Assembly (NCBI RefSeq): GCF_000687475.1
Contig: NC_057318.1
Span: 2,294,001-2,358,000, forward strand
Reading direction: 5' to 3'
DNA: 64,000 nucleotides
Origin: Ustilaginoidea virens
Taxonomy: Eukaryota > Ascomycota > Sordariomycetes > Hypocreales > Clavicipitaceae
The first letter of the stretch is position 1. Each line of letters starts with the position of its first letter. This document shows positions 8,439-63,600 of the stretch, one piece after another. The translations under genes and the position numbers were made by a program. The notes beneath the pieces were generated by a model. The model searched no databases. It was given only the letters and a program-made list of their open reading frames with translations, and was not told the DNA's origin.

Positions 8439-8761
8439 ATAGCTAAGATAGTAAAAAAACTCTTCGCGATTTCGCCCGCACCTAGGTAGCGGCACGGAAC
8501 CGCCTCTAAAATCAATTCTAATAATCCTAATCGCTTCCTCTCGTCCGTTTACCCCCCTCGCCTATAATACATCGCGTCCAAAGAGTAGGCGCGGTAGGCG
8601 CGAACGAAGTAATAGATATTAACGGAGGGAATAAGGGCGGCATTATATACAGCCGCTATAACCCTACCACTACGATTGCGAATAGTATATAGTATAACTA
8701 GACCGAAACCGAGCCTACCTAGGAGCAGAAGCAACCTACTACTATTATAATTAAAGAATCG

Positions 8762-10030: not shown

Positions 10031-10079
10031 ATTAAGACCCTATTAGCCCTAGAGTCTGTACCTACTTTAGCCCCGACCT

Positions 10080-13000
10080 CTGCCTCTATTGTAACTACCG
10101 ATATACTACTATTATTAACCCCTATATACCTATCTGTATAATATTAGTCTTCTATTGGAATATATAGAAGAAAACCTCCTTTATACGAATAGCGCTTTAC
10201 TACTAAAGCGAACCTAATGTTATAGCGATCTAAAAACCCGCCGCGCCTAGCTATGCCCTATTAAGCCTAAGCCTTAGTAAATATATATTAGTAGCTTATA
10301 GCAGACGAGCGGCGATATATATCTATAAGCGGTACGGTCCTAATATATAGACTACTAAGAAAGGACCTAACTAGTATAAGGTCTGCCTCTTTAAAACCGA
10401 TATTTACTTTATCTATTCCCCGGGCTATAAATATAATTAGACTACCCCCCTTATAGACCTTATAAGGCTCCTACCCTAACCCTAAAGTATATTTATTAGG
10501 GATTTTAATATATACTATCCCTTATAGGATAGCCTAGATAGAACCTTACTTAATATTAATACCCTTTTCGACCTTATGATGCGGTAGAGACTCAGCCTAG
10601 CGACCCCCCGCGGCGAAATTATATAGCCAGCGCTAAATAAAAGAAATAGTACTATAGACCATACCTAGGTTATATAAGACCTTACTATTAAGTACCTCGG
10701 CAATATAAACCTCGCTAAGTCTGACTATATCCTATAGCTTATTTATATTAATACTAGCAACCTATAAGCCGCTAAAGCCTACCTAAAAAATAGCTAAAAA
10801 TCCCTCGACCGATATTTTACTTAGGTAGAAGCTAAAAACCGCCTTATGCCTGCCGCTACTACGGCCCTGCTTAGCTCTCCCGAAGAAATAGATATATATA
10901 CTAAATAGCTTACTTACTAACTCTAAGAAATTATAGATATTATAGCCCTAAAGAAAACCCCTAAAGCCCCCGCTATAGAACCGTAGTAGAATAACCATAT
11001 AAAAATAGCCGCTATCGCTACGAAGAAAGTATACTAGAAGTAGGCAGTATATTATACCCCTAAAAACTATAGGGCCGCCTAAGATATAAAAGCTATTTAA
11101 ACCTAGGTCGTATAAAAAGAGCGATAATGCTCTTAGAGAGAGGCATTAAAGAAAGCTATAGTATAGAATATAGACTTTTAGTCCTTAGAACGATAGGCTA
11201 GACTATATAGTAGCCTCCCTCCTAAGTCTAAGGAGATCCTACTACTCTAATATACTAGCCCTAGCCACCCTTTAGTAACTATATATAGCGAAAAAGTATA
11301 GGTCCTCACTTAATATTTCTTCCCCTAGTCCTATACAATATTTAAAGATATACTAGACCTAACCTTCCCCTAACTTACTAATATAGAGTTCCCGCTATAT
11401 AAGAGATTTATATATAAAAAGGTCCGCACCACCCTTTATTATATAGCCAGCTAAAAGGCCCCTAGACTAAACGGGCTACCTATAGGATTCCTTAAGGCAT
11501 ATAGCCCCCCCTTAATTACAGCTCTTACCTACCTTTTTAATAAGTCTTACTATATTAGGCATTACCTGGCTTAATTCTAAGAGGCCCGTATAATCGTACT
11601 AAGAAAGCTAGGAAAAAAACCAAAAGAATACTCTAAAGCAAGAGGCTAAAAACCGATATCCTTATTTAATTTAACCGGTAAAGTCCTAGAAGCTATAGTA
11701 GCGTGCTAGCTTACTGCTATCCTTAAGGAGGGCAACCTATTCCCAGACCTTTAAATAGGAAATAGAGCTAATTATTTTATAAATATAGCCCTTAATACTC
11801 TTATAGAAATAATTCGTATAGTGTAGCACTATAGCAGGATCGCCTTACTTCTCTAGCTTAATATATCTACAGCCTTTAATATAGTAAACTATATTCGATT
11901 TACCTATCTACTCTTAGAAAAGGGATTACTACTATAGATTATAGTATAAATTTACAGCTTTACCGACTCTTATATAATATAAATTCACTTTAAAGGCAAA
12001 TTAACTAATAACCTACTTATTACTATTAGGGTCCTATAAAGGTCCCCCCTCTCCCTTATTTTCTTCCTAGTCTATATTATACTACTCTACGAGAGGCTTA
12101 AAGAAATAGCCTTTACTATTACCCTAAGGTTCGCAGATAATACTAATATTATAGTATATAGGAGGAGTATAAGGGAGACCTAGACCCTATTTAAAAAGGC
12201 ATAAATAATTTATAAAGAGTGGTCTAAATAAGCCAGGCTTAATTTTAACCTAAAGAAGAGTAAGCTTATCTATTTTATATATGCCTATAAGGCAGATAAG
12301 ATGCCGGTCCGATTTAAGACTATAATAATTCAGCTAAAATAGTACGCCTATTTCCTAGGGGTTAAAATCTACTAAAAACTTTAGTAGCATAAATACCGCG
12401 CAAAAATAGCTAAAAAGCTCGAGCAGTAGCGACTCGCCCTTATAGCAATAGCGGCCTCTATATAGGGATATTAATATAGGGAGGCCTAATTAGTCTATAT
12501 ATAGGTTATTCGCACTACTATCGCCTTCGGCGCGGGAGTTTAGTATACCCCTACCGCCCCTAATAGGGTGGCGAAAAGTATTGTAAAATTATTAACTATA
12601 GAATAATTATCTTACTTTTAAACTGTTATTAGGGCCTTTAAGGCTATACCGATAGATATCCTCGAGATTAAGGCAGCTATACTACCTATCGACTTATACT
12701 TAAATTATATCTGCTAGCGATTCTTAGAAAAGATAGTAAAGACCGGGATAGCTAAGCGAATTAACCGCGCCTCTACTATAGTAGCAGTAATACTCTAACG
12801 CTATCGGCGGAGCGATTATAAAGAACCCTAGATATATATCCCGTTCCTAGAATTCGACCTATAGTAGCTAATAGCTAAGGAATACTTAGTAAAAGAGTAG
12901 CTTATTAGGTAATCTAAATATTAAGCCGCTATAAGAGCGAGATAGCAGCAGTACGGGCCTATAGCGGTAGAGAGGGCCTTAGACTTTTAATCTATAGCTA

Positions 13001-13400
13001 TAATAATTTAGCTTTATAATAGCCTCTTTAAATATAAATCGGCCGTATTTACCTAGCTTTATATAAAAAAGATCGGATTAAACTCTTTTCTCTATTAGCG
13101 CTAAGTCCCTATTATGCCCTCGCCTCTCTACCGATATAGGGAGGCCCCTAAAGACTATTATTACCTAATCCTCTTTTGCCTAAAATACAGATGATAGCGC
13201 TAATAGCTATACGGGACCGGCCTAAGCCTCTTTTAAGACTGCTAAGGGATCTCTATTGCCTTTAATAAGCTAAGCCTCGCCTGCCGATTTATATATTAGA
13301 TTTTTAGCCTCGACTATTTTAACTAGTTCTAGCTTGCTTAGTTGCTCTAGCGATTTGCCTCTATAGAGGCATTAGGCCAACCCTAACCGCCCGATACCGC
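10080..13400 (+). pseudogene. LINE ORF2: AP-like endonuclease and reverse transcriptase (decayed)
   Basis: The endonuclease motif IRDFNIYYPL near 10495 corresponds to the usual GDFN-HHP motif of APE-type endonucleases. Reverse transcriptase blocks follow: KPISLFNLTGKVLEAIVA near 11650, and the active-site block at 12130-12141. That block now reads FADN, the second catalytic Asp having become Asn by G-to-A change. The C-terminal part continues to about 13400. TAG/TAA codons are frequent. No RNase H could be recognised with confidence. The homologous block in other copies here still reads FADD (31301-31312, 63921-63932). Confidence 0.75.
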
Positions 13401-13499
13401 CCCTAATATCTAATAATAATATCCCGATGCAAGAGAGAGGAGATATAGTAGGCAGATAAATGCGATTAATTTTTAGCTACTCTAAAGCTATAATATTAA

Positions 13500-14230
13500 T
13501 ATTAGAGCCCCCCTCCCCCCCCCCTCCCCCTCCCCCGCCGGCCCCTATAGTAGCCCCCCCTCCCTTTCCCCCCTCTCCCCCTCCCTTTTTATTGCCCTCT
13601 TTTACCCCTAAGAGACAAGTAGCTCTAATACGGCCTAAATACCTTTTAATACTTCTATTTTACGCTCCTTAAGGTCTAATGCCTTTTAGGTTATCTTAGG
13701 AGCAATACTCCCCCCTATTACTACTACCGCTACTATTACCTTCCCCCTGCTATAGGCAGTCGACGCCTACTGCGCCCTTAACTAGAGGGTGTGGTAGTTA
13801 TCGACCTATCTATATTAGCATCTATCCTATATAGTCCCTGCATTTTATACGTACCTCCCCCCTTATGGCTAATACCTTTTAGGCACCTAGGAGGGCGTAA
13901 ATAGACTTCCGGTTTTTAGGAGTCTATTTAAAGGGTCGGCAGGTCTTCCCTGCCATAGTATACGCGAAATATACTACCCCGGGCCCTATATGGCATTATA
14001 CCGTATTACTATCGGTCGAATGCTAATTAGATTAAGGTTTAGTCGGTCGGGTCCTACCTTATTAAGAGTAGTAATAATATTCGGGGTCTTCGGCTTATAT
14101 TAGGTAAGGGTTATAGGGCTAGCCTTATAGCTTGCCGGGCTAGTAATAATAGGTTAGTAACGCTAGTATAGCGGGAGCGGGTAGTACCTACCCCCTTGTC
14201 TAAAGATACCGACTTTTTTGGTATACTACT
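13500..14230 (-). pseudogene. Antisense reading frame in the LINE 3' region (unknown protein)
   Basis: On the strand opposite to the reverse transcriptase, a long frame is broken only by TAA/TAG. It aligns in predicted protein with the frame at 47050-47817 in the second LINE copy. Shared words include VDNY and LDLKERK. In the LDLKERK stretch the differences between copies fall at third codon positions (CTA/CTT, CGG/CGT) apart from one RIP-type change. The C-terminal end is Gly-rich here (the poly-G face of the 13508-13585 tract) and Lys/Gly-rich in the other copy. Function is unknown. Confidence 0.4.
13508..13585. repeat. Poly-C/poly-G tract
   Basis: A run of C blocks separated by single T/G bases, giving long G runs on the minus strand with potential for G-quadruplex formation. 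The proline-rich frame on the plus strand here is an artefact of this tract. It coincides with the end of the antisense frame. Confidence 0.8.
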
Positions 14231-14340
14231 GCTATTATTATTATTGCTATTGCTATAGCTATTGCTGCTGCTGCTATTGCTACTACTAATGCTGTTGCTG
14301 CTGCTATTGCCGATGCTAATGCTACTGCTATTATTACCGC
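14227..14340. repeat. GCT/ATT trinucleotide-rich tract
   Basis: An imperfect run of GCT, ATT and ACT triplets. On the minus strand, in the frame that leads into the antisense ORF, it reads as an Asn/Ser-rich stretch. The second LINE copy has an equivalent tract at about 47820-47895, just before ATG 47817 (minus). Confidence 0.7.
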
Positions 14341-15061
14341 CCTACCGTACGGGTTAGCATTATCCCTATAGTGCTAGAGAATAGGGCTTAAGGGGATTAT
14401 ATATAGAAAAATAACGGCTATATAGAAAGGAAGAAAAAGGGATTAAAAAGTCGGGGGGCACCTACACCTTTATATTTTCGCCCGATTAGAGGCCCCTATG
14501 CCCTCTTTTTATACTTAGCTTACTCTAACCCCCGACCCGATACTGCTTGCCTTCTATTAAGCACCCCCCCTATAGCCGATTTGCCGCCGATATAGCCCTA
14601 ATAATAGAAAATTCCCTTACTTTTACTTTAATGCCCCTATATGATACGCACGCTATATAGCCGGCGCGCATGCGGCATAGCCGGCGCTGCCCCGCTCGTA
14701 TAACCTCTATTTTACTTTCGATTTATAGCGTACTAACCCGGGACTACCCCTCCCCTATAGATACTAGACCTACCTTTTTCCGGACCTACTTTTTCTGGAT
14801 CGCTTTCGCATTCTTTTTAGTACTACTGCTAGGTACGATTTTAAGTGATAGCGTACCTACCTTCCCTATATGCCGGAAACCCGTCGGCCCCCCCGGGGGC
14901 CCGACTCCCTAGTCGTTATAATTATACTAGTAGGAAGGGTTTTCCCCCCGGACCTTGGGTTTTTCCCTTCCGGATTATTTGCCGGAGTACTAGATAGGCA
15001 ATTCTAGCTTAGAATAGCCCCCTAGAGTAATTTAATAATAATAATAATAGCTAAGATAGTA

Positions 15062-15402: not shown

Positions 15403-16722
15403 ACTATATATATATGTATTACTCTAGCTAAGCTATCTAGGGGGGGATAGGTCCCCGTCTAGCCTAATGCTAGTATTTTTATATCTAATCTATATAGGAA
15501 ACCCGAGTGCCGGGAGGAAAACCTATATACCGTCCTTAATCGGTAATATCTCTTCGAATTCGAAGGGGATTTACTATATATTACAAAGAGGTATCCTATC
15601 GCATAAAACTAGGTCTAGCGGCAGGGCTAGGAAAGTATAGATAGTAAGAGCGCTTTAATAGGCGCGGTAGTTTGCATTAGTAGTTATTAGTTATTAGTCA
15701 TTAGTTAGGCTCTGGGATGGGTGTGATTCGGATCTAGCGTAAGTAGTATTATTGGGTAGGGGCGGTAGCGGTAACATCAGTATCGGGTAGGCAGCGGTAT
15801 TACGGTAAGTTGCGCATTATATTATTATTGATTTTATCTGATATGGGTTAGGGCAGCTAGCGGACGGTCAAGTGATCTAATGCGGGTATATAGCGGTATA
15901 AAGTCTCCCTTACTTGCCCTACCTTTCTTTTCCTCTTCCTTTTTTATTCCATATTAAAAATTTCTAATAATTTTCCTTTACTCCCTTATATGCAGTTCCG
16001 CCTCGATTGCGCTACTATAGCTTTTATATGCCCTTTATTATTTAAGATGCCGACCGTTCTAGAATTAGGTCTTAGTCTAGCCTGAAAATGGCTCTATCGT
16101 CCCTATATACGCCGCGGTGCCAATATAGCCGCTTATTGCTATGACTAATAAGGTAAGAGGTTCTCTTTAATTATTATCTGTCTTTTGCTAATAGTAGGTA
16201 GGACTTAGGGGTGCTTACTTCGCTTATACTTTAAAGTAGAAGCCTTATTATATTATAACTGCCGAATCGCATTATAATCGATACAGTTCTAAGTTAATTA
16301 AGGTAAAGCTAGCGTATAATACTATAAATTGCGAATTAGTAGAGAGTATACTTATATTGCAAAAGGCCTTCTCTTGCGGGCAGGAAGTAAGTATAGTAGC
16401 TTACTAATATCTTTTAATTTTATAGCTAACCTTAGTAGGTAGATAAAGATAAGTACTATAAGGTCTAATAGACTGCGTATTAGTCTATTGCGCTAGCTAC
16501 CTTAGTTTCCCGAAAGGGCTAAGACGATTTTGCCTTTATAATGCGAATATCGGTGCTTATAGTCTTAATTATACTTTTAGCCGATTTCTTTAGTTTTATT
16601 AAGAAAGGGGTTTTAGCCTTAGAGCGCGCTTATAGCGGGGGGCCCTAGCCCCTCTTTTTATTTAAGGAGCCTTAGCCTCTTACTATTATTAGTAATATTA
16701 CTATAAGCGATAAAAGCTCTAT

Positions 16723-21294: not shown

Positions 21295-21303
21295 CAGAGG
21301 GGG
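21295..21303 (+). other. Copia polypurine tract
   Basis: The purine run AGAGGGGG lies immediately before the 3' LTR (TGTTAAAATCC at 21304), in the position expected for the plus-strand primer. The other copy has the complement (CCCCCT) at 37895-37901. Confidence 0.8.
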
Positions 21304-24114: not shown

Positions 24115-25157
24115 TATATATATAAGGCAGATAAGACTAAAGTATAGCTTAAGACTATAATAATCTAGCCGAAATAGTATACTAAATTCTTAAGAGTCGA
24201 AATCTACTATAAACTAAAATAGAGGGAATACTATATTAAGATTGTAAAAAAACTTAAGCGGTAATAATTTACGCTTATAGTAATAGCGGCCTTAACCTAA
24301 GGCTGCTAATATCGGAAAACACGCTTGGTCTATATATAGGTTATTTAGACCTCTATTGCCTTTAGCATAAGGGTATAATATACCCCTACCGCCTTTAAAG
24401 GGGTAGCGAAAAGTATTATAAAATCCTTAGCTATAGAATAATCAGCCTGTCTCTATATAATTACTAGGGCCTTTAAGGCTATACCGCTAAATACCCTCGA
24501 GACTAAGGCAGCTATACCCCTAATTAACCTCTATTTTAACTATATCTATTAGCGGTTCCTTAAAAGAATAAATAAGATAGACATAACTAATAGTATTAAC
24601 TGTATATTAATAGCGGTAGTGGTAATACTTTAATGCCGATAAAGGAAGGGCTATTAAAAACCCCTAGCCTATATACCGTTCCTTAATCTTAACTTTAGCT
24701 AGCTTCTAGCTAAAAAGCGATTAGTAAAAGACTAATATAATTAATAGTAAAGCAATTAGGCAGTAGTAAGGGCGAGATACCCTTAGTATAAGACCCTAGT
24801 AGCCGAAAGGGCACTAGATTTCTAATCTATAGTGAAAATAACTTAATTATACGAAGGCCTATAAAAGTATAAATCAGTAATACTTACCTAATTTTATATA
24901 AAAAAGATCGGCTTTAACTCCTTCCTCTACCTCTAATAAATTCCCTTAGTGATATTACCTTTTGCCGCTATAGGGAAGGCCTAGAAAACCTTTATTATAT
25001 TATCCTCTCCTGCCTAAAGTACTATAGATAAAGGCGTATACTCTTTAGGTCTAATCCTAGCCTTAGCCTACTTTATAATTGATATAGTATATCTATCGCA
25101 CTCGATAAACTATACTTTATATAGACGATCGCCTATTAGATACTTAATATTAACTAA

Positions 25158-25409
25158 TATCACGGGCTCGGGCTACGTCCGCGCCACAATATGGCTAGGA
25201 CTCGGGCTGCGCCCGTGCTTAGCCTAGGCAGGGTCAGATGGGTTAACGGCACGGGGTCACAGAACCACACCAGGACCCCGACCTGTACCACATAGGGATA
25301 AATAGGCATTTAAGAGGCCCCTATTCGGGTTCTCTCTCTTTTCTCCTTAGTCTATTTAATATATTCATTCGACGTCTATTCGCAGTAGCCCTAGGGCTAG
25401 TCCTTTATA
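25158..25409 (+). repeat. Gypsy 5' LTR (252 bp)
   Basis: Starts TATCACGGGCTCGGG (ancestral TG probably turned to TA) and ends AGTCCTTTATA. It pairs with 46659-46910, with many C/T and G/A differences between them. Confidence 0.9.
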
Positions 25410-26690: not shown

Positions 26691-28080
26691 ATAAATACCC
26701 CTTTTTAATACTAATTTTATATAAATCCTATACCCTTATTAATACCTTAATCGACTTAGGATATAACTATTATAACACTATAAGCGAAAAGATAGTATAA
26801 TAGTTAGGCCTCTAATTTATCCGCCTGCTATAATATAAGGAAATCGGAATGGCAGTAGATATTTAGAGCTATTTAGGAGAATATAAGGTAATATATTCTT
26901 CTATTACCTATATCGTTTATATAGCAATCGATATCGATAGATAGCTATCTATAATTATACTTTATATTATCTCGGGCTTTACCTATAATATTATCTTTAG
27001 GATACTTTAGATAGAGTACTATAATATTATACTATAGGTAAAGTAGCACTAATTAAAGATCGGATCGATAGGTAGCCTTATTATTAAGGAATCAATAAAA
27101 AGGCAATAGGGTCTAACTATAATAAATATCCTTAGCTTAGTCTTCTATAATATATTAAAATAAGCGAAACGCTCTAAGGACCGATCGATTTCCTTTATTG
27201 CAATAAGCTTATAGGAGATAATATATATCCTCTATATTATACTACTACCTTATTAAGACTTTGCCTTTTAATTATAGGAGCTATAGATACTCCTAATAGA
27301 ATTATAGGAATTTGCCGACCTTTTTAATAAAGAGAAGGCTTTTAGTCTCCTCCTATACTAGAGTATATTAGACTATTATATCTAACTTAAGAAGACTATA
27401 AATAGGAATTAGCTAGACTTACCTTAGGGCCTATTATATAATATACTATAAGACTAATTACTTAAGGTTTAGAGATAAGTAATTAACCTAATAGATAAAG
27501 GATAAATCTAAGCAAGTTTCTTATTAATAGCAGTACTAATTTTATTAGCTAGAAAAGGGAATAGTAAGTAGTACTTTTGCATCAATTATTAGGCCCTTAA
27601 TAAAGTTATAGTCTAAGATTAATACCCCCTTCCCTTAATTAAAGAGACCTTACGATCCCTATCTTAGGCGAAATAGTTTACTAAAGTTAATATATGTATA
27701 ACGTTCTATAAGATATATATTGCAGAAGGCGATAAATACTTAACTATATTCTGCATATAATTCGGACTATTTAAATAGCTTATTATACTATTTAGCCTAA
27801 CTAGGGCCCCTACGACCTTTTAAAGATATATTATTAAGGCCTTAGGGAATATACTAAGAGACTTTATAACTGCCTATTTTAATAATATCTTAATTTATAT
27901 TAGGGGATTAAAAGCAGATTATATAGGGTATATTAAAGAAGTCCTTTAACGATTGCAAAAGGCTAGCCTAAATTTAGATCTTAATAAATACGATTTTATA
28001 GTAAAAAAGGTCTAGTACTTAGGATATATCGTAATAGCTAAAAAGGAAATCTATTTAGACCCTAAAAAGATTAAAGCTAT
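26691..28080 (+). pseudogene. Gypsy protease and reverse transcriptase, 5' part (decayed)
   Basis: A protease-like motif is near 26750 (LIDLGYNYYN, the usual DSG triad now damaged). The RT palm follows from about 27440, including the motif around 27660-27850. The active site at 27875-27886 reads YFNN instead of YFDD, two G-to-A changes. The frame is cut at 28080 by the LINE insertion and continues at 34951 after the duplicated GATTAAAGCTAT. Confidence 0.75.
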
Positions 28081-28726
28081 ATATATATATATATATTACA
28101 CTAGCTAAGCTATCTAGGGGGGGGGATAAGCCCCCATTTAGCCTAGTGCTAGTACCTCTATGCCTAATCTATATAGGAAACCCGAGTGCCGGGAGGAAAA
28201 CCTATATACTGTCTGTGGTTGATGGTATCCCTTCGGAATCGAAGGGGGTTTACTATACATTACGAAGAGGTGTCCTGTCGCATGAGACTAGGTCTGGCGG
28301 TAGGGCTGGGAAAGTGTAGATGGTAGGCGCGCCTCGATAGGCGTAGTGATTTGCCTTAGTAGTCATTAGTTATTAGTTATTAGGTATTGGTTAGGCTCTA
28401 GGGTAGGTATAAATTAGAACCGATGTAGTTAATGTTATTAGGTATGGGAGGCGGCAGTAACGTTAGTATTAGGTGGGCGGTGGTATCGCGGTGAGTCGCG
28501 CGTTTTATTATTGTTAGCTTCATCTGATGTAGGTTAGGGCAGCTAGTAGATGGTCGAGTGATCTAGTATAGGCATATAGTAGTATAAAGTCTCCCTTACC
28601 TGCCCTACCTTTTTAATTCCTTTCCTCTTCCCTTTTTATTCCTTATTAAAAATTGCTAAGAATTTTCCTTTACTTCTCCGCCTTAATTGCATTATAGTAG
28701 TTTTTATGTATCTTTTATTCTTCGAT

Positions 28727-29990
28727 ATGCCTACCGTTCTGGAGTTAGGTCTTAGCCTAGCTCGAAAATAGCTGTATCGTCCCTGCGTATACTGCGGTAT
28801 AGATATGGCCGCTTATTATTATAATTAATAAGGTGAGAGGTTCTCTTTGATTATTATCTGTCTTTTTCTAATAGTAGGTAGGGCTCGGGGGTGTTTATTT
28901 CGCTTATACTTTAAAGCAGAAGCCTTATTATATCCTAGTGCGTAATACTATAAACCGCAAACCGGTAGAGAGTATGCTTATATTACAGAAGGCCTATGCT
29001 TGCGAGTAGGAAGTAAGTATATCAGTTTGCCGGTATCCCTTAACTTTATGGTTGACTTTAGTAAGTAGATAAAGATGATTACTATAAGGCCTAATAGGCT
29101 GTATATTAGTCTATTGCGCTAGTTACTTTAGTGCCTCGAAAGGGTTAAAACGACTCTACTATTATAATACGAATAATAGTGCCTATAGTCCTAATCTCGC
29201 TATTAGCTAACTTCTTTAGGCTTATTAAGAGAGGGGTTTTGGCTTTAGAGTATACTTATAGCGGCGAGCCCTAGCCTCTCTCGTTAGTTAAAGGAACTTA
29301 GCCTCCTACTACTATTGCCGGCGATAAAAGCCCTGCTAATTCCATTATTATATTAGATATCGATAATAAGCCTACTCCCGGGCCTACTGCTATAGAGGAA
29401 CCACCTTATAGCGAGGGGGTCTCGCTAATATAATCTAAGACTCTTATAATGCTATCTTCTAGTAAATTGCAGTAAGCGGTTGCGTTTTTAAAGTTTATAA
29501 AGTCCTAAGCGGAGTCTTAGCTAATAGCATCTGCCTCCGGAGCGCTAGCTATACCGCTATTAAAGCCTCCCCTATCTATTATTTAGTCGGTATAGCCTAA
29601 GCAAGCTAAATTAGTAGTTCTATCGCTATTTTCTCTTTATCCCTATACTAATACCCCTACCCCTTCTCCTTTTAAGAGGAAAAGGGAAGGGTTAAAGATA
29701 ATAGAATCGCTTATAAAGGGAATACTAGGTCTAGCCGCTAGGGTTAAACGAAAGATATATTTAAGATTTATAGTCTTTTTTTCCCTAAGGGGGAAAAGGA
29801 AAGGAAAAGGGAAAGCAAAAGTAGCCCCTAATAATAGCTATAGTGATAGAGAGGGTGGTATAGAGTGAGTAAGGGTCTAAGGGGTTAAAGATATTAGGAA
29901 GATTAAGGGTCCAAATCTATCGACTATATAGGTAGTTTATATAAAAAGGACATTCTTTCCCTATCTATATAGTTAGTTATATCTTTATCT
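28727..29990 (+). pseudogene. Antisense ORF of the LINE 3' region (unknown protein)
   Basis: Starts at ATG 28727 (MPTVLELGLSLARK) and contains the segment PCVYCG with two cysteines. It changes frame near 29175 (next part PIVLISLLANFFRLIKRGV) and ends in a basic tail rich in GK/RK before (TA)n at 30000. Interruptions are TAA/TAG only. The same two-part layout occurs in the copies at 16047, 58855 and 61343. No domain recognised. Confidence 0.4.
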
Positions 29991-29999
29991 ATAATTATC

Positions 30000-32900
30000 T
30001 ATATATATATATATAGTCTAGGGTTAGGGTGTAATCGTATCGGGTTACTATTGGAGCTAAAGTTTGCATAAGCGGTAAGTGCGATAGTTAGGGTGAATTA
30101 TTCAAGCCGGTAGGTATTAAGGACCTATTTAATAACCTATTTAGCTAAGTCTTTATTTTCAAGTATTTAGGTAATACTACACTTATCTAGTATAGGGCGG
30201 TCTTAAATGCAGAGGGGAGGGTTTCTAAAATAGTTATTATACTCTAGGATTATATATTCAATATTTTCTATATTAGGACTGCATTAGCAATACGGGTGGT
30301 AGATAGATAGGACCTTTATCTTATATAGGAACTTATTGAGGCCTATTTTTTCTGTTCTAAATTAGGTGAAAAGGGAGGACTTATATTTATAGAGGTTTTT
30401 ATAGAGATCTAGCATCTTCTTTGCAGAGGTAAAGTTAGGGGCATATTTAGCAGTAGGGCGGTTCTTTAGCGGGTATTATATTTAGGCGAGTTATTACTTC
30501 GATTGCTATCTTTTTATCTATTTAAAAGCTAGGGAGTAAGCGGGGGATAGTTTATTATCTTTGAGTAGAATCGAATCTTTAAGGGCTATATAATTTAGTA
30601 TTTTATTCTCAATCGGTCGCCCTCATCTATAGGTAGGTTTTTATTATAGCTAAGTCTAGATAATAGTATATACATTAGAGATAAGATTAGCTATACTACT
30701 TTCTTAGGTTCTAGTGAGGAATTATTATTAGGCTAGGTTAAGGTAGAGGTCGAGTAGGGGGACTACTACTTTAGTTTCTATAATTATATTAGGTATTATT
30801 CGGTAGGCTCCTATGACTATATAGAGGCACTTCGACTATTTAGCGGCTAGACTGTATATAATGCCTTTTACTATTTCTCCTAGCTTAGTAGGAATATACT
30901 AGATTCCGGCGCTAAAGGCGATTATAATTCTAATAACCTATATGTATAGTAGTCAGGCTTCGCAGAACTAATATCCCTATATAGAGGCTGCTAGAGCGAT
31001 AAGGGCAAGCTTCTGCCTTTCTAGCTTCTTTACTATTTAGGCCCTATAGTCGGTCTAGCTGAGTTTGCGGTTAATCTCTACTCTAAGGAATTGGGCGTAT
31101 TATATAGGCTGGATAGTCGTGTTGCCGAATTATATTATTATAGTATTTGGTCGGTACTATTTAGTAAAGTATATTAGCTCGCTCTTTACTAGGTTGAATT
31201 TTAGTCTAGCCTCTGCCGACTATTTTTTATAGATCTTGTATACTTTCGAGAGGGTTGCGACTATATCTTATATTGTTTTACTGTATGCGATTATATTAGT
31301 ATCGTCTGCGAATCCTAGGGTTAGCGAGTTATCTACTATTTTAAGTCTGCAGTATAGGGGTGCGATATAGAAAAGGAAAAGGATTAGGGAGATTAGGAAG
31401 CCTTAGGGCACTCTTACTGTAATTAGGAATCTTTAGGTAGGTTAGCCTTCGAAGAAGATTTTAGCTAAATATAATATAGTAAAGCCTTAGACCTAGGCTG
31501 CTATCTATTAGGGGGCGCTATTTTAGAGGAGGAGGTATATAAATCTGGTATAGTTAATAGTATCAAATGCCATAGAGATATCTAATTATAGTAGCGATAT
31601 TATTCCTTTATGCTGCTAGGTGGCCTTAACTGCTTCTACTAGGGTATATAGCACTATATCTATTAATCTGTTTGCTCTATTGCCTATTTATATATCTAGT
31701 AGTAATTTCTATTCTTCTGCGATTATTATTAGTCTTTTTGCTACTATAGCTTTAAGGACTTTACTAAGGAGGTTTAAGAGGGATATTAGGCGCTAAGCTC
31801 CTGCTCTTTAGTATTCTTTAGGTGTTTTACTAGGTTTTCTTAATATTACGACTTTAACTTCCTAGAACTATATTAGGTAATAACTAATTCTATATATAGC
31901 GTTGAGGAGTATTATTAGGGCTTTAAGAACCGGTTCTCTATAGGCTTTAAGGAATCCTACTAGTATACTATTAGGGCTTAGTGCTTTCTAGCTAACTATA
32001 TATTGGAGGGCATTATAAATATCTATATTAGAGAATTCGTCTTTAGGGGCGAATATTGTATTAATAAGGCAGGGGAATCGCGGGTTTAGGATATCATTAA
32101 GGGTAGCTATTAATATTAAGAAGAATCTTTTTGCTAATACTTCTGCTTTAAAGGAATATATTTTTGCTTCCTATATTTAGGCTTTTTCGCCTTAGAAAAG
32201 TATAAGGATTTCTCTTAATTCTAAGGGGAGTCCGCTCTATATCTAGGCCTATTTCTCTAGGGACTATAAGTCTATATTTTTCGTTATAGCCTTATTAATG
32301 GCTTCTCTCTATATCTAGCGTTTTTCCTATTAGATAACCTTAGTTTGGTTTATCTCTACTCTTTATGCTATTAACTAGTTAAGGCTAGTATAGTCTTTTT
32401 TCTAATTCCTTATAGCCTTACGGGCCGCTATTATAGCCGATTATACTTCCTAGGTCTACTATAGGGCCCTTTTTAGCGGTTTAATTCCTCTTTTAGGTAT
32501 AGCAATATTAGCGATAGCCTGCAGTTAGGTCGTAAGCTATTAGGCGAAAGTATCGATCTCTATAGGGGACTAGGGTGGGTACGAGGCGTATAGGATAGCT
32601 ATCCTGACTTTAGCTTTAGCTTAAGCGAGGATTTTATTAAGTTTCTTTTATTAGTATATTAGTAGTAATTTGCGAAATTCGTTTAGTCCTATTTCTACCT
32701 AAATTATCTAAAGGATATAATTAGATCTAGTGATATCTGCCGCCCCTATAAACTCTATATTAAGGTCTCCTATGCTTTATGTATGGTCGATAGTACTATT
32801 ACGTTTGCCTAGGGCTTATCTAGTTATCTCTCCCTATAGTATTATAAGGGTTAGCTTCTATTTTAATGCGAGTTCGAGGAGGGTATTATAGCCTAGGGAG

Positions 32901-34800
32901 GTTCTATAAGAGCGGTCCTATATAGGGTAGTAGATATTAAAGTCACTAGTAAAGATACTATAGGGGCGAGGGGTGGTTTAGGCGAATTCCTAGAGGGGGG
33001 TAGACTAATTTAGGGAAAGGATTAGGGAGTAAATAAAATAGATATTAGTATTTTAGAGTATAATATAGCACTAGTCTAGACCTAAGTCTATTGCCTAAGA
33101 GCTAGGAGTATATCTTTTATAGATATAGATCGCTATATATCTGCCGTAGGCGGCTACTTAGTATCTACTGAGGCTGGAGTATAGGGGGAGTCTATTTAGG
33201 GCTGCAAATTCCTAAAGGGTAATAATATCTAGTTCGGATTCGTAATTAAAGGCAAGGTGCGCTAGTAGTAATTTCTTTTATATATTCTAGTATAGTACCT
33301 CTATTATTAGTATTAGGGCTAGGGGGTTAGGGCTTTTAGTATATTAATAGCAGTAGGCTCGGATAAATTAGGTTAGAAGAATGCAGCGATATTGCTACTA
33401 CTATTAGTCCTCTTAGGGGTAATAAAGCTTTTTTTGCATAGTCTACCGATTTATTTTCTTAAGGAGTCCTCCTTTAGGGAGTTATTAGCAAGGCATTTAC
33501 GGCCTTTATCCTTTAGGATAAGGGGGGGAGGTATCGATAAGGTACTAGTAGTTACGAACTATATTAGTCTAGTGCTATAAGCCTATCTTGCGATATCCTA
33601 TTGCCTATTCGCTATAGGGTAGAGTCGAGACTAGGCTAGATAGGGTCCCTAGTAGTTAAGGCAGTACTCTCTTTTATTGCTAATAATACTAGGGCAATCT
33701 TTATCTCTATTAGGGTGTCTCTCCGCGCTGCACTATCTGCATCGAGGGGTCTCTATATAATAATTTATAATATATCCGAATTTAAAGTATTAGTAGTACT
33801 ATTTTAGGTAGATAGTTTCGTCGTATAGTTTAGCCTTAAAGATTTCTACTTGGTAAATAACTCTAGTCTTATAGAGTCGGTTTACTACTTCTATATTAGT
33901 TACTCTAATAATTAGGGGGGCTCTCGTTATTTCTTTATGGGGTTTCTTTATAGCGACTCTACTAATACTAAGGCTATTAGCTTAGGTTAGGTTCAATTTA
34001 ATATCTTTAATAGGGATATTCTTAGAGAATTAGGTGGGGAATCCTTTAATAATAATACTAAAGGTGCGGATATTCGGTATAACTTTTATACTAAATACGA
34101 GGGGGATCTAGGTGGTTTCTATAGTAAAATAGGATGCAGCTTCTGCGAAGGTAACGATTATATCTCCGCTATAAAATCGGCGGGTAGCAATAGCATTAAT
34201 ACCTCTAGTAGTAGTATTTACTGCTTTTATAATCTTAATGGGGGTTCTCTATCATAGGTTCTTAGTAATACTATCTCCTTTAATTATTATTTTACGGTGG
34301 ATTCTCGGCGGTATAAGTAAGATAGTCGGTCTAAGTAGTATAGTTATTAGTATGCCTTTAGTAGCGATACTAGCCTAGGTCGTTCTAGAGGGGGTCTTTA
34401 AGGCAAAAGCTTTATTTATAATGCTCTCTACTACTTTTTCTAGATTATTAATTATAATAAGGTTCGAGTTTAGGTTTAGGGTAGGATTAGTTCGGTTAAT
34501 GCGTTTAATACTATCGACTAGGCTAGTAATAGCATTCTATACATTTCCTAGTATAGCTGCCGGGATATAGTCTGCGATCTTTTGGTAATACTATTTAAGC
34601 AATTCGGTTTCTTCTCGGGTTCCTACTTTAGTTTATGCGATATTACTGCTGATTTGTCTGTAATTATCGTTAGTGATGGTGATACGGTGGTTATAGTAGC
34701 TTGACTCGAGTCCACCCCTATTTCCTCCGTTTAAGTCTATAATTTCCGCCGCCTCGACCGCGCCTTCCTCCTAGTGCTGATGCACTATCGGCGGACGGGG
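30000..34800 (-). pseudogene. LINE ORF1 and ORF2 (endonuclease/RT), decayed
   Basis: The reverse complement shows an endonuclease motif SDFNIYYP near 32930-32960, matching the endonuclease of the first LINE. It also shows an intact RT active site FADD at 31301-31312 (context LGFADDTNIIAYS). The ORF1 part lies between about 33600 and 34800. Stops are mostly TAA/TAG. The exact ends of the two frames cannot be fixed because of RIP damage. Confidence 0.65.
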
Positions 34801-34950
34801 TAAAATAAGGTGAGGGATTAATTTATCAACTTTTTGACTGTTTTAGGGGTGTATTCGCGCCGGTACCGAGGTGCGGGCGAAATCGCGAAAAGTTTTTTTT
34901 TTTTTTTTTTAATCGTGCCTTGATTTTAATCGTGCCTTGATTAAAGCTAT

Positions 34951-37894: not shown

Positions 37895-38014
37895 CCCCCT
37901 CTAATTAGCTACTGTAATAGCAAGCTAATCGTCGTATAAAGAATAGGAAAAGAAAATGCAATAAAAGTGCTAAGGAAAAACATAAAAAAAACCTTAGTAA
38001 AAGTTAGTATAAGT

Positions 38015-43808: not shown

Positions 43809-43823
43809 CCCAGGCTTATAACC
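43809..43823 (-). other. Copia primer-binding site (RIP-altered)
   Basis: Next to the 5' LTR of this minus-strand element. The complement reads GGTTATAAGCCTGGG, against GGTTATGAGCCCGGG in the other copy: two transitions in the part matching the initiator tRNA-Met anticodon arm and its flank. Confidence 0.7.
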
Positions 43824-46650: not shown

Positions 46651-46658
46651 GGGGGGTA

Positions 46659-46910
46659 TATTACAGGCTCGGGCTATACCCATGCTACAATATAGCTAGG
46701 ACTCGGGCTGTGCCTGTGCCTAGCTTAGGCAGGGTCAGATGGGTTAATAGCACGGGGTCATAAGACCACGCTAAGACCCCGACCCGTACTATATAGGGAT
46801 AAATAGGCATTCGAGAAGCCCCTATTTAGGTCCTCTCTCTTTCCTCCTTAGTCTATTTAATATATTCATTCGACGCCTATTCGCAGTAGCCTTAGGGCCA
46901 GTCCTTTACA
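46659..46910 (+). repeat. Gypsy 3' LTR (252 bp)
   Basis: Starts TATTACAGGCTCGGG after a GGGGGG polypurine tract and ends AGTCCTTTACA before the ACTAA duplication. Confidence 0.9.
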
Positions 46911-47049
46911 ACTAACTTAATTAATTTTAGCTTATTTAATCCCTTTAGTATAGTATAGCTAAAGGCGCTATTAAATACCCCTACGTAGCCCCTATATAAT
47001 ACTTATAGTAATCCTATAGTAGGAATAAGAAGCATTAGGAATAAGTAAA

Positions 47050-47817
47050 TCTCTTAGGCCTTATAGGCTAAAATTAGTTAATAGTTATTATATTAGTAAT
47101 AAAGGTTTTCTCCTCTTTTTCCCCTTTTTTGCTTTTTTTACTGCCTTTTCCCCCTTTATTTTTATCTTGCCCCCCCTCTAAAGCCTCTTTCCCCTCCCTT
47201 TAGGCTAAAAGCACTTATAGCGATATAGCGATATCCTCTTATATATAAGCTTAGTGCTCTAAAGTTAGCATTTTCCGCTCCTTTAGGTCTAATATCTTTT
47301 AGATTGCCTTAGGAAAGCTAAAGCCCCCTACTGCTATTACTACTACTACTATTACCCGACTATACCCCTAAGAGGCAGATACTTATTTAGCCTTCTACCA
47401 AAAGGCCTTATAGTTATCTACTTAAAAGATAATTAGCCGGCGACCTATACTATATATAAATTAGAAATATACTTTTACCCCCCTAGCTAGTATCTTTTAT
47501 ACGTTAAGGAGCTCTTATATTAAGATCCGGTTCTCTAGGGTCCGCTTAAGCGGCACATAAGTCTTACCTATAAAGGCATAAGGGTAATACGCTATATTAG
47601 TCCCTATATATATTAGTATCGCCTGAGAGTAGGTATAACCCGGCCTATACCTTATTGGCTCAAGTACTAATAATTAGGATCCTCCGATCGCATAAGGTAT
47701 AGCCTATAAGGCTATATATACAGCTCTTCTAGCTATTATATAAGGGTTAGCTGCGGCCCTATCGCGCGTAAGATTCGTACTTACCCCCTTATCTAATATA
47801 GCTAAGCGTTTAGGCAT
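47050..47817 (-). pseudogene. Antisense ORF of the second LINE copy (unknown protein)
   Basis: The best-preserved antisense frame. From ATG 47817 (MPKRLAILDKGVSTNL) it runs about 250 codons with only TAA/TAG interruptions. The frame is also open upstream through an Asn/Ser-rich stretch. Features: a central region with VDNYKAFWQKAKQ, a Val-rich segment, KAIQKILDLKERKMLTLEHQ (probably helical), and a strongly basic GGKGSKKSKKGEKE tail. It aligns with 13500-14230 of the first LINE, with silent changes. Not recognised as a known family; a distant relation to a nucleic-acid-binding protein is only a guess. Confidence 0.45.
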
Positions 47818-48589
47818 TTTATCGCTATTATTATTATTGTTACTATTATTATTGCTATTACTATTGCTGCTATTGCTTCTATTGCTGCTGCTACTGTTCT
47901 GTTATAGGGGTTAGTATCGGCCCTATACTGCGATAGAGGGGTCATTACATACCTTAAAATTAGCGCTATAGAGGAAAAGAAGAAAAGAAGAAAAGGCATT
48001 AAGTCGGGGGGTATTACTAACCTATATACTAATATAGTGCCTAAGGCCGCTTACTTTAACCCTTAGAATTAGCTTACTTCCTCTTCCGACCTAAAGACTA
48101 ATATATACTAAGAAGCGCTTAGGCTACTATAGATATGCGCCTAGCGAGAATATGCCTATCGCAAGTGTATTACTGGCCCTACCCCTCTGACTTTACCCTC
48201 CCTTTACTTTTTGCCCGATAAGACTACCGACTTAGACCCGATACTCTAAGACTTCTCGCTTATACTCTTCTTATATAATACCGCTAGATATAGTCTTAAG
48301 CAGTTATATACCCTACTCTTTTACGCACTAAATACCCGCCGCCCCTGCTATAGGGCGATATAAAATAGAAATTAAGAATGCCACAAGGGTTTTCCTCCTA
48401 GCTATTAGGTTCTTCTTTTCTGAATCATCCTAATAGAAGTACTAGATAGGTTATTTAGCTCTAAATAGCCTCTAGCGTAATTTAATAATAATAATAATAG
48501 TAAGTATAGTAACTAACGCTTATTTAATTCTAGGATAGTAAGAGAAATTAAAAGTAAAGGCACTGCAACGCTATACGAAAAATCACGGC

Positions 48590-58205: not shown

Positions 58206-60674
58206 GTTATATATATATATTACTCTAGCTAAGCTATCTAGGGGGGGATGGGTCCCTATTTAGCCTAATACTAGTACCTCTATACTTAATCTATATAGGA
58301 AACCCGAGTGCCGGGAGGAAAACCTATATACTATCCTACTATCCTTAATCGGTAGTATCCCTTCGAATTCAAAGGGGATTTATTATATATTGCGAGGAGG
58401 TATCCTATCGCGCAAGACTAGGTCTAGTGGCAGGGCTAGGAAAGTATAGGTAGTAGGAATGCCTCGATAGGCGCGGTAATACATATTAATAGATATGAGG
58501 TTAGCTCTAGGGTGGGTATACATTAGATTCGGCGTAGGTAGTATTATTAGGTAGATATAGTAATAGTAAATAGTAATATTAATATCAGGTGGGCAGCGGT
58601 AATATAGTGAGTTATATGTTTTATTATTATTAACTTCATCTAATATAAGTTAAGGCAATTAGCGGACGGTCGAGTGATCTAATATAGGCATATAGCGGTA
58701 TAAAGTCTCCTTTACCTGCCTTACCTTTTTATTTTTTTTCCTCCTCCCTTTTTACTCTTTATTAAAAGTTATTAAAAATTTTCCTTTACTCCCTTATATA
58801 TAACTCTGCCTCAATTACGCTACTATAGCTTTTATATACCCTTTATTCTTTAAGATATTAAATATTCTAGAGTTAGGTCCTAGTTTAGCCTAAAAATAGC
58901 CGTATCGTCCCTATATATACCGCGGTGCCAATATAGCCGCTTATTATTATAACTAATAGGATAAGAGGTTCTCTTTAATTATTATCTGTCTTTTGCTAAT
59001 AGTAGGTAGGGCTTAGGGGTGCCTATTTCGCTTATACTTTAAAGTAGAAGCCTTATTATATTCTCGAATATAATGCCACAAACTATAAACCAGTAGAAAG
59101 TATATTAGTATTATAAAAGGCCTTTACTTGCAATTAGGAAATAAATATAGCAGCTTATTAGTATCTCTTAACTTTACAGCTAACTTTAGTAGGTACATAA
59201 AGATAAGTACTATAAGGTCTAATAAGCCGTATATCGGTCTATTGCGTTAGCTAATTTAGTTCCCTAAAAAAGCTAAATAATTCCGCCTTTATAATATAAA
59301 TATTAGTACCTATAGTCCTAATTATACTTCCGGCTGATTTCTTTAGATTTATTAAAAAAAGAGTTTTAGCTTTAGAATAAGCCTATAATAAGGGGCCCTT
59401 ACCTCTCTCTATATTTAAAAAACCTTAGCCTCCTACTACTACTAGTAATATTACTACTAGCAATAGAAGCTTTATTAGTTCTATTATTATTATCGATAAT
59501 AAGCTTACTTTTAGGCCGGCTATTAAGAGGGAACCGCCTTATAGCGAAAGGGTCTTGCTAATCTAATTAGAGAATCCTATATTGCCTTCTTTTAGTAAAT
59601 TATAGTAAATAGTTGCATTTTTAAAGTTTATAGAATCCTAAGCGGAATTATAGCTAATAGCTTCTGCCTCTATGGCGCTATCTATACTGCTATTATTAAA
59701 GCTCTTTCCGCCTATTATACTATTGCCGCTTAAGTAAGCTAAGCTAATAGTTCTATTGCTATTTTCCCTTTACCTTTAGGCTAATATCCCTACCTTTTTC
59801 CCTTTTAAGCAAAAAAAAGAAAAGCTAAAAGCAATAGAGCTATCTATAAAAGAGATACTAGGTCTATATACTAAGGTTAAATAAAAGACTCGTTTAATTA
59901 TAATATCCTTTTCTTTAGGGGTAAAAAAAAAGGAAAAAAGAAAGCAAAAGTAGCTCCTAATAATAATTATAATAATAATAAGGGTAGTATAAAGTAAGTA
60001 AAGAACTAGAGAGTTAAAGATACTAAAAATACTAAAGGTCTAAAGCCGTTAATAATATAGGTAGCTTATATAGAAAGGATATATTTTCCCTATCTAAAAG
60101 GTTAATCGTATTTTTATTTATAATTATCTATATATATATATGTATTTTAAGGTTAAGGTGCAATTATATTAAATTATTACTAGAGCTAAAGTCTATATAG
60201 GCAGTAAGTATAATAACTAGGGTGAATTATTCAAGCCGGTAGGTATTAAAGACCTATTTAATAACCTATTTAGCCGAGTTTTTATTTTTAAATACTTAGA
60301 TAATATTATACTTATTTAGTATAAAGCGGTCTTAGATATAAAAGGGAAAGTTTCTAAAATAATTATTATACTCTAGGATTATATATTTAATATTTTTTAT
60401 ATTAGGTCTGCATTAATAGTACGGGTAATAAATAGATAAGACCTTTATTTTATATAGGAACTTATTAAGGCCTATTTTTTTTATTTTAAATTAGGTAAAA
60501 AAAGAGGATTAATATTTATAAAGGTTTTTATAAAGGTTTAGTATCTTCTTTATAGAAGTAAAATCAGGGGTATATTTAGTAGTAAAGCGGTTTCTTAATA
60601 GGTATTATATTTAGATAAATCGCTATTTAGATTATTATCTTTTTATCCATTTAAGAGCTAGAGTATATATAGGA
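58206..60674 (-). mobile_element. LINE copy interrupted or truncated near 60672
   Basis: (TA)n at about 58207, the 41-bp motif at 58291-58331, and the 3' region with antisense frame (about 58855-60110, start codon lost). A (TA)n run near 60130 and the beginning of the ORF2 3' end follow. The match to the nested LINE copy (up to about 30520) stops where the next LINE begins at 60675. It may continue beyond the window on the far side of that copy. Confidence 0.7.
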
Positions 60675-63600
60675 AATATATATATATATATATATTATAC
60701 TAGCTAAGCTATCTAGGGGGGGATGAGTCCCCATCTAGCCTAATGCTAGTATCTCTATGCCTCATCTATATAGGAAACCCGAGTGCCGGGAGGAAAACCT
60801 ATATACTATCCTTACTCGGTAGTATTCCTTTAAATTTGAAAGGGATTTACTATATATTACGATAAGATGTCCTATCGCGTAAGACTAGGTCTGGCAGCAG
60901 GGCTAGGAAAGTGTGGATAGTAGGAGCGCCTCGATAGGCGCGGTGGCTTGCGTTAGTAGTCATTGGTTATTAGTTATTAGTCCTTGGTCTTTAGTCTGGC
61001 TCTAGGGTGGGTATGAATCGGATCCAGCGCGGGTAGTATTATTAGGTAGGGGTGGTAATAGTAATATTAATATCGGGTAGGCGGTAGTAACGCGGTAAGT
61101 CGCGCGTTTTATTATTATTAATTTCGTCTAGTATAGGTTAGGGCAGCTAGCGGACGGTCGAGTGATCTAGTACGGGTATATAGCAGTATAAAGTCTCACT
61201 TATCTGCCCTACCTTTTTGTTTCCTCTCCTCTTCCCTTTTTATTCCTTATTAAAAATTACTAAGAATTTTCCTTTATTCCTCTATATGCAGCTCCGCCTC
61301 TATTGCACTACTATAGTTCTTATGCACCTTTTATTCTTCGAGATGCCTACCGTTCTAGAGTTAGGTCCTAGCCTAGCTCAAAAATAGCTATATCGTCCCT
61401 ATGTATACTGCGGTGCTAATATAGCCGCTTATTATTATAATCAATAGGATAAAAGGTTTTCTTTAATTATTATCTGCCTTTTTGCTAATAGTGGGTAAGA
61501 CTTAGAGGTGCCTATTTCGCTTATACTTCGAAGCGGAAGCCTTATTATATCCTAATGTGTAATACTACGAACCGTAAACCGGTAGAGAGTATGCTTACAT
61601 TATAAAAGGTTTATACTTACGAGTAGGAAGTAAGTATATTAGTTTGCTAGTATCTTTTAACTTTATAATTAACTTTAGTAGGTAGATAAAGACGAGTACT
61701 ATAAGGCCTAATAGGCTATATACCGGTCTATTACGCTAATTACCTTAGTTCCCCAAAAGGGCTAAAACGATTCTACTATTATAATACGAATAATAATGCC
61801 TATAATCTTAATCTTACTTCCAGCCGATTTCTTTAGACTTATTAAAAGGGGGGTTTTAGCTTTAGAGCGCGCTTATAGCGGTAAGCCCTAGCCTCTTTTA
61901 TCGGTTAAAGAGCTTTAGCCTCTTACTACTATTACTAGCGATAGGAGCCCTATTAATTCTATTATTATTCTATTAGATATCAATAACGAGCCTATTTTTA
62001 GTCTAACTACTATAGGGGAACCGCTTTATAGTAAGGGGATCTCGCTAACCTAGTCTAAGACTCCTATAATGCCGTCTTCTAATGAATTATAGTAAGTAGT
62101 TGCATTTTTAAAGTTTATAAAGTCCTAAGTAGAATTGCAGTTAATAGTTTTTACTTCTAAAGTGCTATCTATACTATTATTAAAGCCTCCCTTATCTACT
62201 ACTTAATCGGCGCTGCCTAAATAAGCTAAATTAGTAATTCTATTATTATCTTTCTTTTGTCTTTAGGCTAATACCCTTACCCCTTCCCCCTTTAAAAGGA
62301 AAAAAAAAAGGTTAAAAGCGGCAGAATCGCCTATAAAAAGAATACTAGGTCTACCTACTAGGGTTAATTAGAAGATATATTTAAGATCTATAGTATCCCT
62401 TTCCCTAAAGGGGAAAGGGAAAAGAAAAGGGAAAATAAAGATAGCCCCTAATAATAATTATAGTAATAAAAAGGGTAATATAGAGTAAATAGGAAGCTAG
62501 AGAGTTAAAGGTACTAAGAATACTATAGGTTTAGGGCCGTTAACTATATAGGTAGCTTATATAGAAAGGATATATATTCCCTATCTAAGAGGTTAATTAT
62601 ATCTTTATCTATAATTATTTATATATATATATGCATTCTAGGGTTGGGGTGTAATTATATTAGGTTGCTATTAGAGCTAAAGTCTATATAGGCGGTAAAG
62701 GCGATAGCTAAGGTGAACTATTTAAGCCTATAGGTATTAAGGACCTATTTAATAACTTATTTAGCCAAGTCTTTATTTTTAAATGCTTAGGTAATACTAC
62801 GCTTATCTAATATAAGGCGGTTTTAGATATAAAGGGGAGGGTTTTTAAGATAGTTACTATACTTTAGGATTATATATTTAATACTTTCTATATTAAGTCC
62901 GTATTAATAATATAAATAATAGATAGATAGGACCTTTATTTTATATAGGAACTTATTAAGGCTTATTTTTTTTATTCTAAATTAGGTAAAGAGGGAGGAT
63001 TTATATTTATAGAGGTTTTTATAAAGGTTTAGTATCTTTTTTATAAAAGTAAAATCGGGAGTGTATTTAATAGTAAGGCGGTTTTTTAGTAGGTATTATA
63101 CTTAAGTAAGTTGCTATTTAGATTATTATTTCTTTATCTATTTAAAGGCTAAAGTATAAGTAGGGGATAGTTTATTATCTTAAAGTAAAATCGAGTCTTT
63201 AAGGGCTATATAGTTTAGTATTCTATTTTCGGTCGGTCGCCTTTATCTATAAGTAGGTCTTTATTATAATTGAGCCTAGATAATAGTATATATATTAGAG
63301 ATAAGGTCGGCTATACTACTTTCTTAAGTTCTAATGAGAAATTATTATTAAGCCTAATTAAGGTAGAGATCAAGTGGGGGGATTACTACTTTAGTTTCTA
63401 CGATTATATTAGGTATTGCTTAGTAGGCTCTTATAACTATATAGAGGCACTTTAACTATTTAGCGGTTAGGCTATATATAATGCCTTTTGCTACCTCTCC
63501 TAGTTTGGTAGGAGTATATTAGATTCTAGCTCTAAAGGCGATTATAGTTCTAGTGACTTATATATATAGTAGTCGCGCTTTGCGGAATTAGTAACCCTAT

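Follow-up and report, generated by a model that had tools for sequence, protein, structure and literature searches.

A predicted antisense gene in two LINE families

The 64-kb stretch of Ustilaginoidea virens DNA analysed here (the window) corresponds to C3:2294001-2358000 of a genome scanned over 37.16 Mb on 8 contigs. It contains copies of two LINE families, each of which holds a predicted gene on the strand opposite to the polymerase (Table 1). The frame placed at 47050-47817 (minus strand) by the initial annotation starts with an ATG exactly at 47817; the last position of the gene is 47074. The plus-strand positions given for the second family (16047, 28727, 58855, and 61343) proved to be those of start codons, of which the one at 58855 is no longer ATG.

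With window positions 46800-48000 as the query, at least 43 matches were obtained (the best 40 of 785 candidates scored). The family-1 loci compared have a common 3′ end at approximately 48499 with a (TAA)n tail, which is a simple-repeat tail as expected for a LINE. Most of the LINE copies examined are AT-rich and have strong RIP indices. L040 (C3:1949600-1959000) is a near full-length family-1 relic that escaped RIP, with RIPped sequence alongside; the element spans 776-7122 of the reverse strand of this locus (L40rc) at a GC content of 0.58-0.63 and, being un-RIPped, is readable without repair. Its ORF1 possesses zinc-knuckle-like cysteines and gave zero matches in Pfam, while ORF2 matches PF14529 (1.1e-11), PF03372 (6.2e-8), and RVT_1 (9.5e-35), corresponding to the APE-type endonuclease and reverse transcriptase of a LINE. 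The antisense gene runs from 6452 down to 5691 of L40rc, and its stop codon (5691-5693) and that of ORF2 (5692-5694) lie within a single CTAG common to both. In both families, as initially annotated, the LINE was confirmed to run opposite to the gene, by the common (TAA)n end and by ORF2 (endonuclease and RVT_1) on the other strand. Because ORF2 of the family-2 copy 28071-34899 matched up to 30077 and the antisense frame reaches approximately 29.87-29.93 kb, the tail-to-tail order is found in this copy as well. Judged by eye among the matches listed, 9 of the 14 RVT_1 matches of both family types have a reversed gene match 1.1-1.9 kb downstream; the remaining 5 have none at the corresponding place among the matches listed.

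The LINE copy at 46910-48499 is probably not truncated at its 5′ end, since its 5′ part appears to lie at 24115-25156 with an LTR-type insertion between the two parts. Direct repeats of 251 bp (25157-25407 and 46658-46908) with a 5-bp duplication, ACTAA, flank 21.7 kb of nested elements on both sides within a family-1 LINE copy. A copia-type LTR retrotransposon (16723-22040; rve, RVT_2), the LTRs of which are 98.9% identical, lies within a family-2 exon 3, and stretches related to it occur at 37119-44598. The window also encodes a 1188-aa CLU protein that is 100% identical to UV8b_03744 of U. virens, the fungus that causes rice false smut. At L010 (1-4078), two family-1 3′ ends are inverted tail-to-tail with approximately 0.5 kb between them.

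Table 1. LINE copies and predicted antisense genes in the window
Feature	Positions	Strand	Basis or remark
Likely 5′ part of LINE copy 46910-48499	24115..25158	+	LTR-type insertion separates both parts
3′ part of family-1 LINE copy (ORF2 end, antisense gene, 3′ UTR, (TAA)n tail)	46910..48499	+	common 3′ end; RIP indices 1.69/0.46
Exon 1, 33 nt, ATG at 47817	47785..47817	-	family-1 gene model
Intron A, 52 nt, GTAAGT...TAG	47733..47784	-	family-1 gene model
Exon 2, 82 nt, first half of Cys motif	47651..47732	-	family-1 gene model
Intron B, 47 nt; place matches intron 1 of families 2 and 3	47604..47650	-	cross-family comparison
Exon 3, 131 nt, with Cx2Cx6C as the second part of the Cys motif (in this copy Tyr appears for Cys)	47473..47603	-	
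Intron C, 51 nt, acceptor TAA in this copy	47422..47472	-	family-1 gene model
Exon 4 (VDNYKA... LDLKERK... tail), stop adjoins ORF2 end	47074..47421	-	family-1 gene model
Second family-1-type LINE copy, diverged	8498..15061	+	LINE comparison
Antisense gene of LINE 8498-15061, exons 1-3 and introns	13806..14224	-	lengths counted by hand
Exon 4 of second family-1-type copy (VDNYHTL... LDLKERK...)	13500..13805	-	end approximate
Family-2 LINE copy	28071..34899	-	ORF2 matched up to 30077
Family-2 exon 1, 106 nt	28727..28832	+	gene model
Family-2 intron 1, 49 nt	28833..28881	+	gene model
Family-2 exon 2, 131 nt, Cx2Cx6C	28882..29012	+	gene model
Family-2 intron 2, 52 nt, with donor GTAAGT and, in this copy, acceptor TAA	29013..29064	+	gene model
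Family-2 exon 3 up to Lys/Gly-rich tail; candidate stops include 29866, 29878, 29929	29065..29931	+	end approximate
Family-2 gene in LINE copy 15395-22716; copia-type insertion 16723-22040 cuts exon 3	16047..16722	+	
Family-2 gene, start into exon 3; lacks its start codon and two donors, exon-3 frame broken	58855..59476	+	
Family-2 gene, intron 1 61449-61498, intron 2 61630-61681	61343..62550	+	end approximate

Splicing and codon-level constraint in family 1

In the family-1 gene model, four exons are separated by three introns, which are 47-57 nt long and bear GT...CTGAC...AG signals. In L040, the introns are 52, 47, and 57 nt long, with the donors GTGAGT, GTATAG, and GTGCGT, CTGAC branch-like sites, and the ends TAG, CAG, and TAG, respectively. 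Their removal leaves 201 residues (MPKRSATLDKG / PGELRAWPCGPC... / GTGAACYPCALAGKTC... / VDDYKAL...) with two in-frame stops, while the un-RIPped fragment L065 has no stops across exons 1-3, the only part in which it is open; no complete copy without stops was found. Thus, an open antisense frame does emerge after splicing, apart from the two stops of L040, and this examination, as well as that of codon-position bias, was performed on un-RIPped natural copies instead of a RIP-corrected consensus. Upstream of the ATG, L040 has a 26-nt pyrimidine run and a leader rich in CAA/CAG, which are compatible with a predicted fungal promoter but suggestive only. CCAAT-box counts gave four ATTGG upstream in L072, one CCAAT in L040, and none in the counted L073 stretch.

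The family-1 alignment consisted of 47 rows, 40 of which span 90% or more of the gene. Exons 1 and 2 are 33 and 82 nt long in all 40 copies and exon 3 is 131 nt long in 37, while intron C measures 56-57 nt in 38 copies and 51 nt in the window copy and one other. The lengths of introns A (52 nt) and B (47 nt) are not multiples of three, yet the spliced length remains in frame in 32 of the 40 copies, including one (L042) without part of exon 4. In the gene at 13806-14224, exons 1 (14224-14192) and 2 (14139-14058) again have 33 and 82 nt, exon 3 ends at approximately 13855, and intron C extends to 13806. For introns A, B, and C, the donor GT is retained in 39, 35, and 30 of the 40 copies (the third count by eye) and the acceptor AG in 38, 34, and 37; because RIP could account for most of the losses, these counts do not constitute a test of selection.

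A first model, in which codons 1-115 formed one exon and intron C was the sole intron, was rejected since codons 12-70 are constrained in another frame (0.15, 0.16, and 0.11 in three pairs by a segment-wise test), which revealed introns A and B. The figures from that model (34/20/12 transversions, dN/dS 0.24, and hhalign P 2.1e-5) are superseded by the corrected splice model. The antisense feature is not the single long frame with RIP-derived stops described initially, but a spliced gene. Of the five stops of the L040 read-through frame, one coincides with the intron C acceptor, one falls within intron B, one arises where exon 2 is read out of frame, and the last two are exonic. The near restriction of stops to TAA and TAG, previously taken as a clue for the frame, is no evidence, because RIP removes TpG in all frames and the absence of TGA is therefore uninformative.

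RIP produces transitions only, and transversions common to copies are accordingly not products of RIP. Transversions present in at least two family-1 copies were counted, and the exons showed 7, 8, and 40 at codon positions 1, 2, and 3, respectively (202 sites each; chi-square p 4.5e-9, with sites taken as independent). The same count gave 6, 5, and 5 in the introns (51-53 sites each) and was flat in the LINE 3′ UTR (22/221, 24/220, and 26/220). As a control, ORF2 exhibited the expected bias at 2350-4040 (43/24/86 of 258 at positions 1/2/3) and 44/28/127 at 4041-5100; the control fails in the last 590 bp (5101-5690; 1/8/7), where few changes are in common. Since the splice model was partly derived from the tested alignment, the transversion test is not independent of it, and the independent support for the model is that from families 2 and 3.

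Comparison of un-RIPped copies across exons 1-3 gave a dN/dS of 0.10 for each of the pairs L040-L066 and L065-L066. For L040-L065, 47 of 61.8 synonymous sites were changed versus 15 of 184.2 others, with dS saturated. Differences at positions 1/2/3 amounted to 8/10/44, 15/11/39, and 11/10/34 in the un-RIPped pairs (82 sites each). The remaining frames gave 0.89-3.17, except for the sense frame with the common wobble column (0.24-0.31), and sense-strand coding was rejected because no sense frame was lowest in any of the three pairs. Substitution patterns with strong codon-position bias were thus found, and, as judged from them, the predicted family-1 gene was under strong purifying selection before RIP. 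Un-RIPped relics of this kind make codon-level tests possible in families ruined by RIP; besides those of L040 and L072, un-RIPped loci are situated at C4:2976500-2981500 and C2:420500-424500.

Related genes in families 2 and 3 and the predicted protein

A search with the family-2 gene gave at least 79 matches from 82 candidates. Its exon 1 has 106 nt, exon 2 has 131 nt (185 nt in w16 and L073), and exon 3 extends over several hundred nt; the introns are 49-50 and 52 nt. The frame is kept across exons 1 and 2 in all eight copies having both (L071, L068, L070, L069, L067, w60, w16, and w58); w28 is the L067 locus, and L072 and L073 are without exon 1. The exon-3 frame is lost in w16 and w58. 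Within exon 3, the un-RIPped L072 and the mildly RIPped L071 gave a dN/dS of 0.26, compared with 0.52-1.41 for the five other frames; among four further pairs, the gene frame was lowest in one (L072-L068, 0.32 versus at least 0.42) and not in the other three. The NCBI protein UV8b_04403 (173 aa), located at L072 (C3:5528500-5532000), is an exon-3 fragment of the family-2 gene.

In contrast to family 1, families 2 and 3 are read straight through the site of intron A; in family 3 (L073 and L074), TLELGPGATRPWPC is read across it, with one residue different in L073. Family 3 possesses an intron before the second Cys pair with GTGAGG or GTAAGG, CTGAC, and TAG (L073 and L074). The upstream stretch of each of two L073 genes is 69-71% identical to the family-2 LINE end (E 1e-11 to 4e-19), and no ORF2 match was found in the 4-kb L073 locus. 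As judged from sequence, family 3 is probably part of a related LINE.

The family-3 gene has 19 matches up to E 10 across the genome. Four of its exon-1 matches lie less than 8 kb from TTAGGG-bearing chromosome ends (C7:2902, C7:2410136, C1:7665, and C1:7459191), and every one of these is oriented toward the telomere. Should these subterminal matches lie within LINEs, the 3′ ends of the latter would be on the centromere side, as is the case for telomere-targeting LINEs. Internal TTAGGG tracts are present approximately 4.1 kb from the left ends of three chromosomes (C1:4131-4229, C2:4085-4138, and C3:4113-4183), as if an element had joined to the telomere there.

The predicted proteins of the three families share the motif C-x2-C-x9/10-C-x9-C-x2-C-x6-C, some cysteines of which are read as Tyr in family 2, a change that RIP makes. 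With hhalign, families 1 and 2 could be aligned across 135 columns (P 4.1e-10; reversed control P 0.32); their homology covers most of the shorter protein, and two intron positions are common to both, one in phase 1 ahead of the second Cys pair and one in phase 0 at E|VD. A Lys-rich tail is not a general feature, contrary to the initial annotation, since the tail of L040 is acidic. None of the proteins (0/7, 0/6, and 0/2) gave a Pfam match up to E 10, and the PF00172 (Zn2Cys6) profile likewise gave no match up to E 10, with most matches above approximately 0.1 filtered in both cases. In the PDB nothing significant was obtained, the best E-value being 0.062 for a ribosomal protein. A protein search with the first, unspliced query yielded no match at E <= 0.01 in the 7991 candidates that were scored. 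A profile search, in which the profile included an early, partly wrong family-1 exon model, retrieved one match only, the U. virens fragment UV8b_04403 (the 7994 candidates with the most words in common were scored).

The spacing of the Zn2Cys6 cluster is Cx2Cx6C-x5-12-Cx2Cx6-8C. The LINE gene resembles it in its six aligned cysteines and in the second half, Cx2Cx6C, in all three families, whereas the aligned motif (Cx2Cx9-10C-x9-Cx2Cx6C) differs in its first half, which has Cx2Cx9-10C instead of Cx2Cx6C; the alternative Cx2Cx6C reading of the first half occurs only in family-3 L074. Uncharacterised fungal proteins with similar Cys spacing exist, but none emerged from the searches made here. 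The motif suggests that the predicted protein binds metal, and its tails are charged. The likeliest reading, with about even odds, is that it binds nucleic acids and serves the element as an accessory or regulatory factor; the regulatory protein envisaged in the initial annotation is an inference.

A proposed accessory gene and its alternatives

At the level of sequence, the predicted gene structure, the homology between families, and strong purifying selection before RIP are established. The initial proposal of a conserved protein-coding frame antisense to a LINE polymerase is supported by dN/dS, codon-position bias, and the spliced frame, and is extended by the introns, the six-Cys motif, the homology between subfamilies, and the tail-to-tail order with ORF2. 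Very probably, at least two U. virens LINE families carry in their 3′ region a conserved, antisense protein-coding gene. It occupies the strand opposite ORF1/ORF2, tail to tail with ORF2, and contains two or three short predicted spliceosomal introns. Host transcription may start at a promoter within the terminal ~650 bp of the LINE (3′ UTR) and be followed by splicing. In the LINE RNA, the introns would be reversed and thus invisible to the spliceosome; they could therefore survive retrotransposition unspliced and return in each new copy. The product, with a six-Cys zinc-cluster-like N-terminus and a charged tail, may play a nucleic-acid-binding accessory or regulatory role for the element. 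RIP later damaged most of the examined copies. A tentative extension, for which the chances appear to be about one in three, is that this intron-bearing zinc-cluster-like regulator, of a cellular type, constitutes a lasting antisense third gene that passes through RNA-mediated transposition thanks to its reversed orientation and that controls element expression or shields the element from host silencing, with family 3 as a branch settled near telomeres.

It is improbable that the selected product is an antisense RNA that mediates self-regulation via dsRNA or interference, without any protein. Being antisense to the 3′ region of the LINE, the gene would give a transcript able to pair with the LINE RNA, and regulation of this type is discussed for retrotransposons (PMC7264820); however, an RNA function does not predict that 40 of 55 shared transversions fall at third positions, a dN/dS of ~0.1, or cysteines common to different families. 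RNA and protein functions may nevertheless coexist. A captured host gene carried as a passenger, with no role for the LINE, is a shade less probable still. The fungal-type splice signals of the introns resemble those of a cellular gene, and both the captured gene and the second cistron driven from the 3′ end that were suggested initially are compatible with the anatomy, but a mere passenger would not account for an equivalent placement in two LINE families that can no longer be aligned there at the DNA level, nor for the constraint within each of them. No separate host copy was found among the best 150 candidates scored for family 1, all of which were LINE copies. Although RIP creates TAA/TAG and removes TGA in all frames and further frames are fairly open in GC-rich L040, it is scarcely credible that base composition and RIP opened the frame without any gene, and a chance or RIP frame was rejected: provided that the alignments are correct, the frame-keeping exon lengths, the matching introns, the codon-position bias, and the cross-family protein homology all argue to the contrary.

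If the accessory-gene interpretation is correct, non-LTR retrotransposons can hold an accessory gene on the opposite strand, as retroviruses and some LTR elements do, and the reversed orientation carries introns through the RNA stage. Annotation may overlook such genes, as UV8b_04403 is listed as an uncharacterised protein.

Primate LINE-1 ORF0 is reportedly an antisense frame in a LINE, as is the U. virens gene. In contrast, ORF0 is located in the 5′ UTR, whereas the U. virens gene lies 3′ of ORF2 and is spliced. HBZ of HTLV-1 is said to be an antisense regulatory gene encoding a bZIP protein of a retrovirus, and it is spliced. Its expression from the 3′ end of the element resembles that proposed here for the U. 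virens gene; on the other hand, it is retroviral and encodes a bZIP protein, and it is compared with the LINE gene by layout. An antisense promoter is mentioned in PMC7264820. No spliced 3′-antisense gene in a LINE was found in the open-licence literature searched, and the parts consulted of the U. virens genome paper count LINEs and do not mention such a gene (PMC13233505). For Penelope elements of bdelloid rotifers, intron retention is ascribed to an antisense template (PMC3846280); unlike the present case, these examples concern host genes that terminal repeats enclose, or else an intron within an ORF of the element itself. The aORF-3R, which are antisense additional ORFs located between pol and the 3′ LTR, such as maize Grande gene23, RIRE2, Retand, and Boty brtn in Botrytis, are described in PMC7264820, according to which Grande gene23 is transcribed from a promoter of its own and encodes a nuclear protein. 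As described there, aORF-3R are, like the LINE gene, extra antisense genes 3′ of the polymerase that are present in most copies without a clear homologue, and Boty brtn is likened to the LINE gene by description, not by sequence. The LINE gene is likewise antisense, located 3′ of the polymerase gene, present in many copies, and conserved, but its carrier is a LINE and not an LTR retrotransposon, and it possesses two or three conserved introns and a six-Cys motif.
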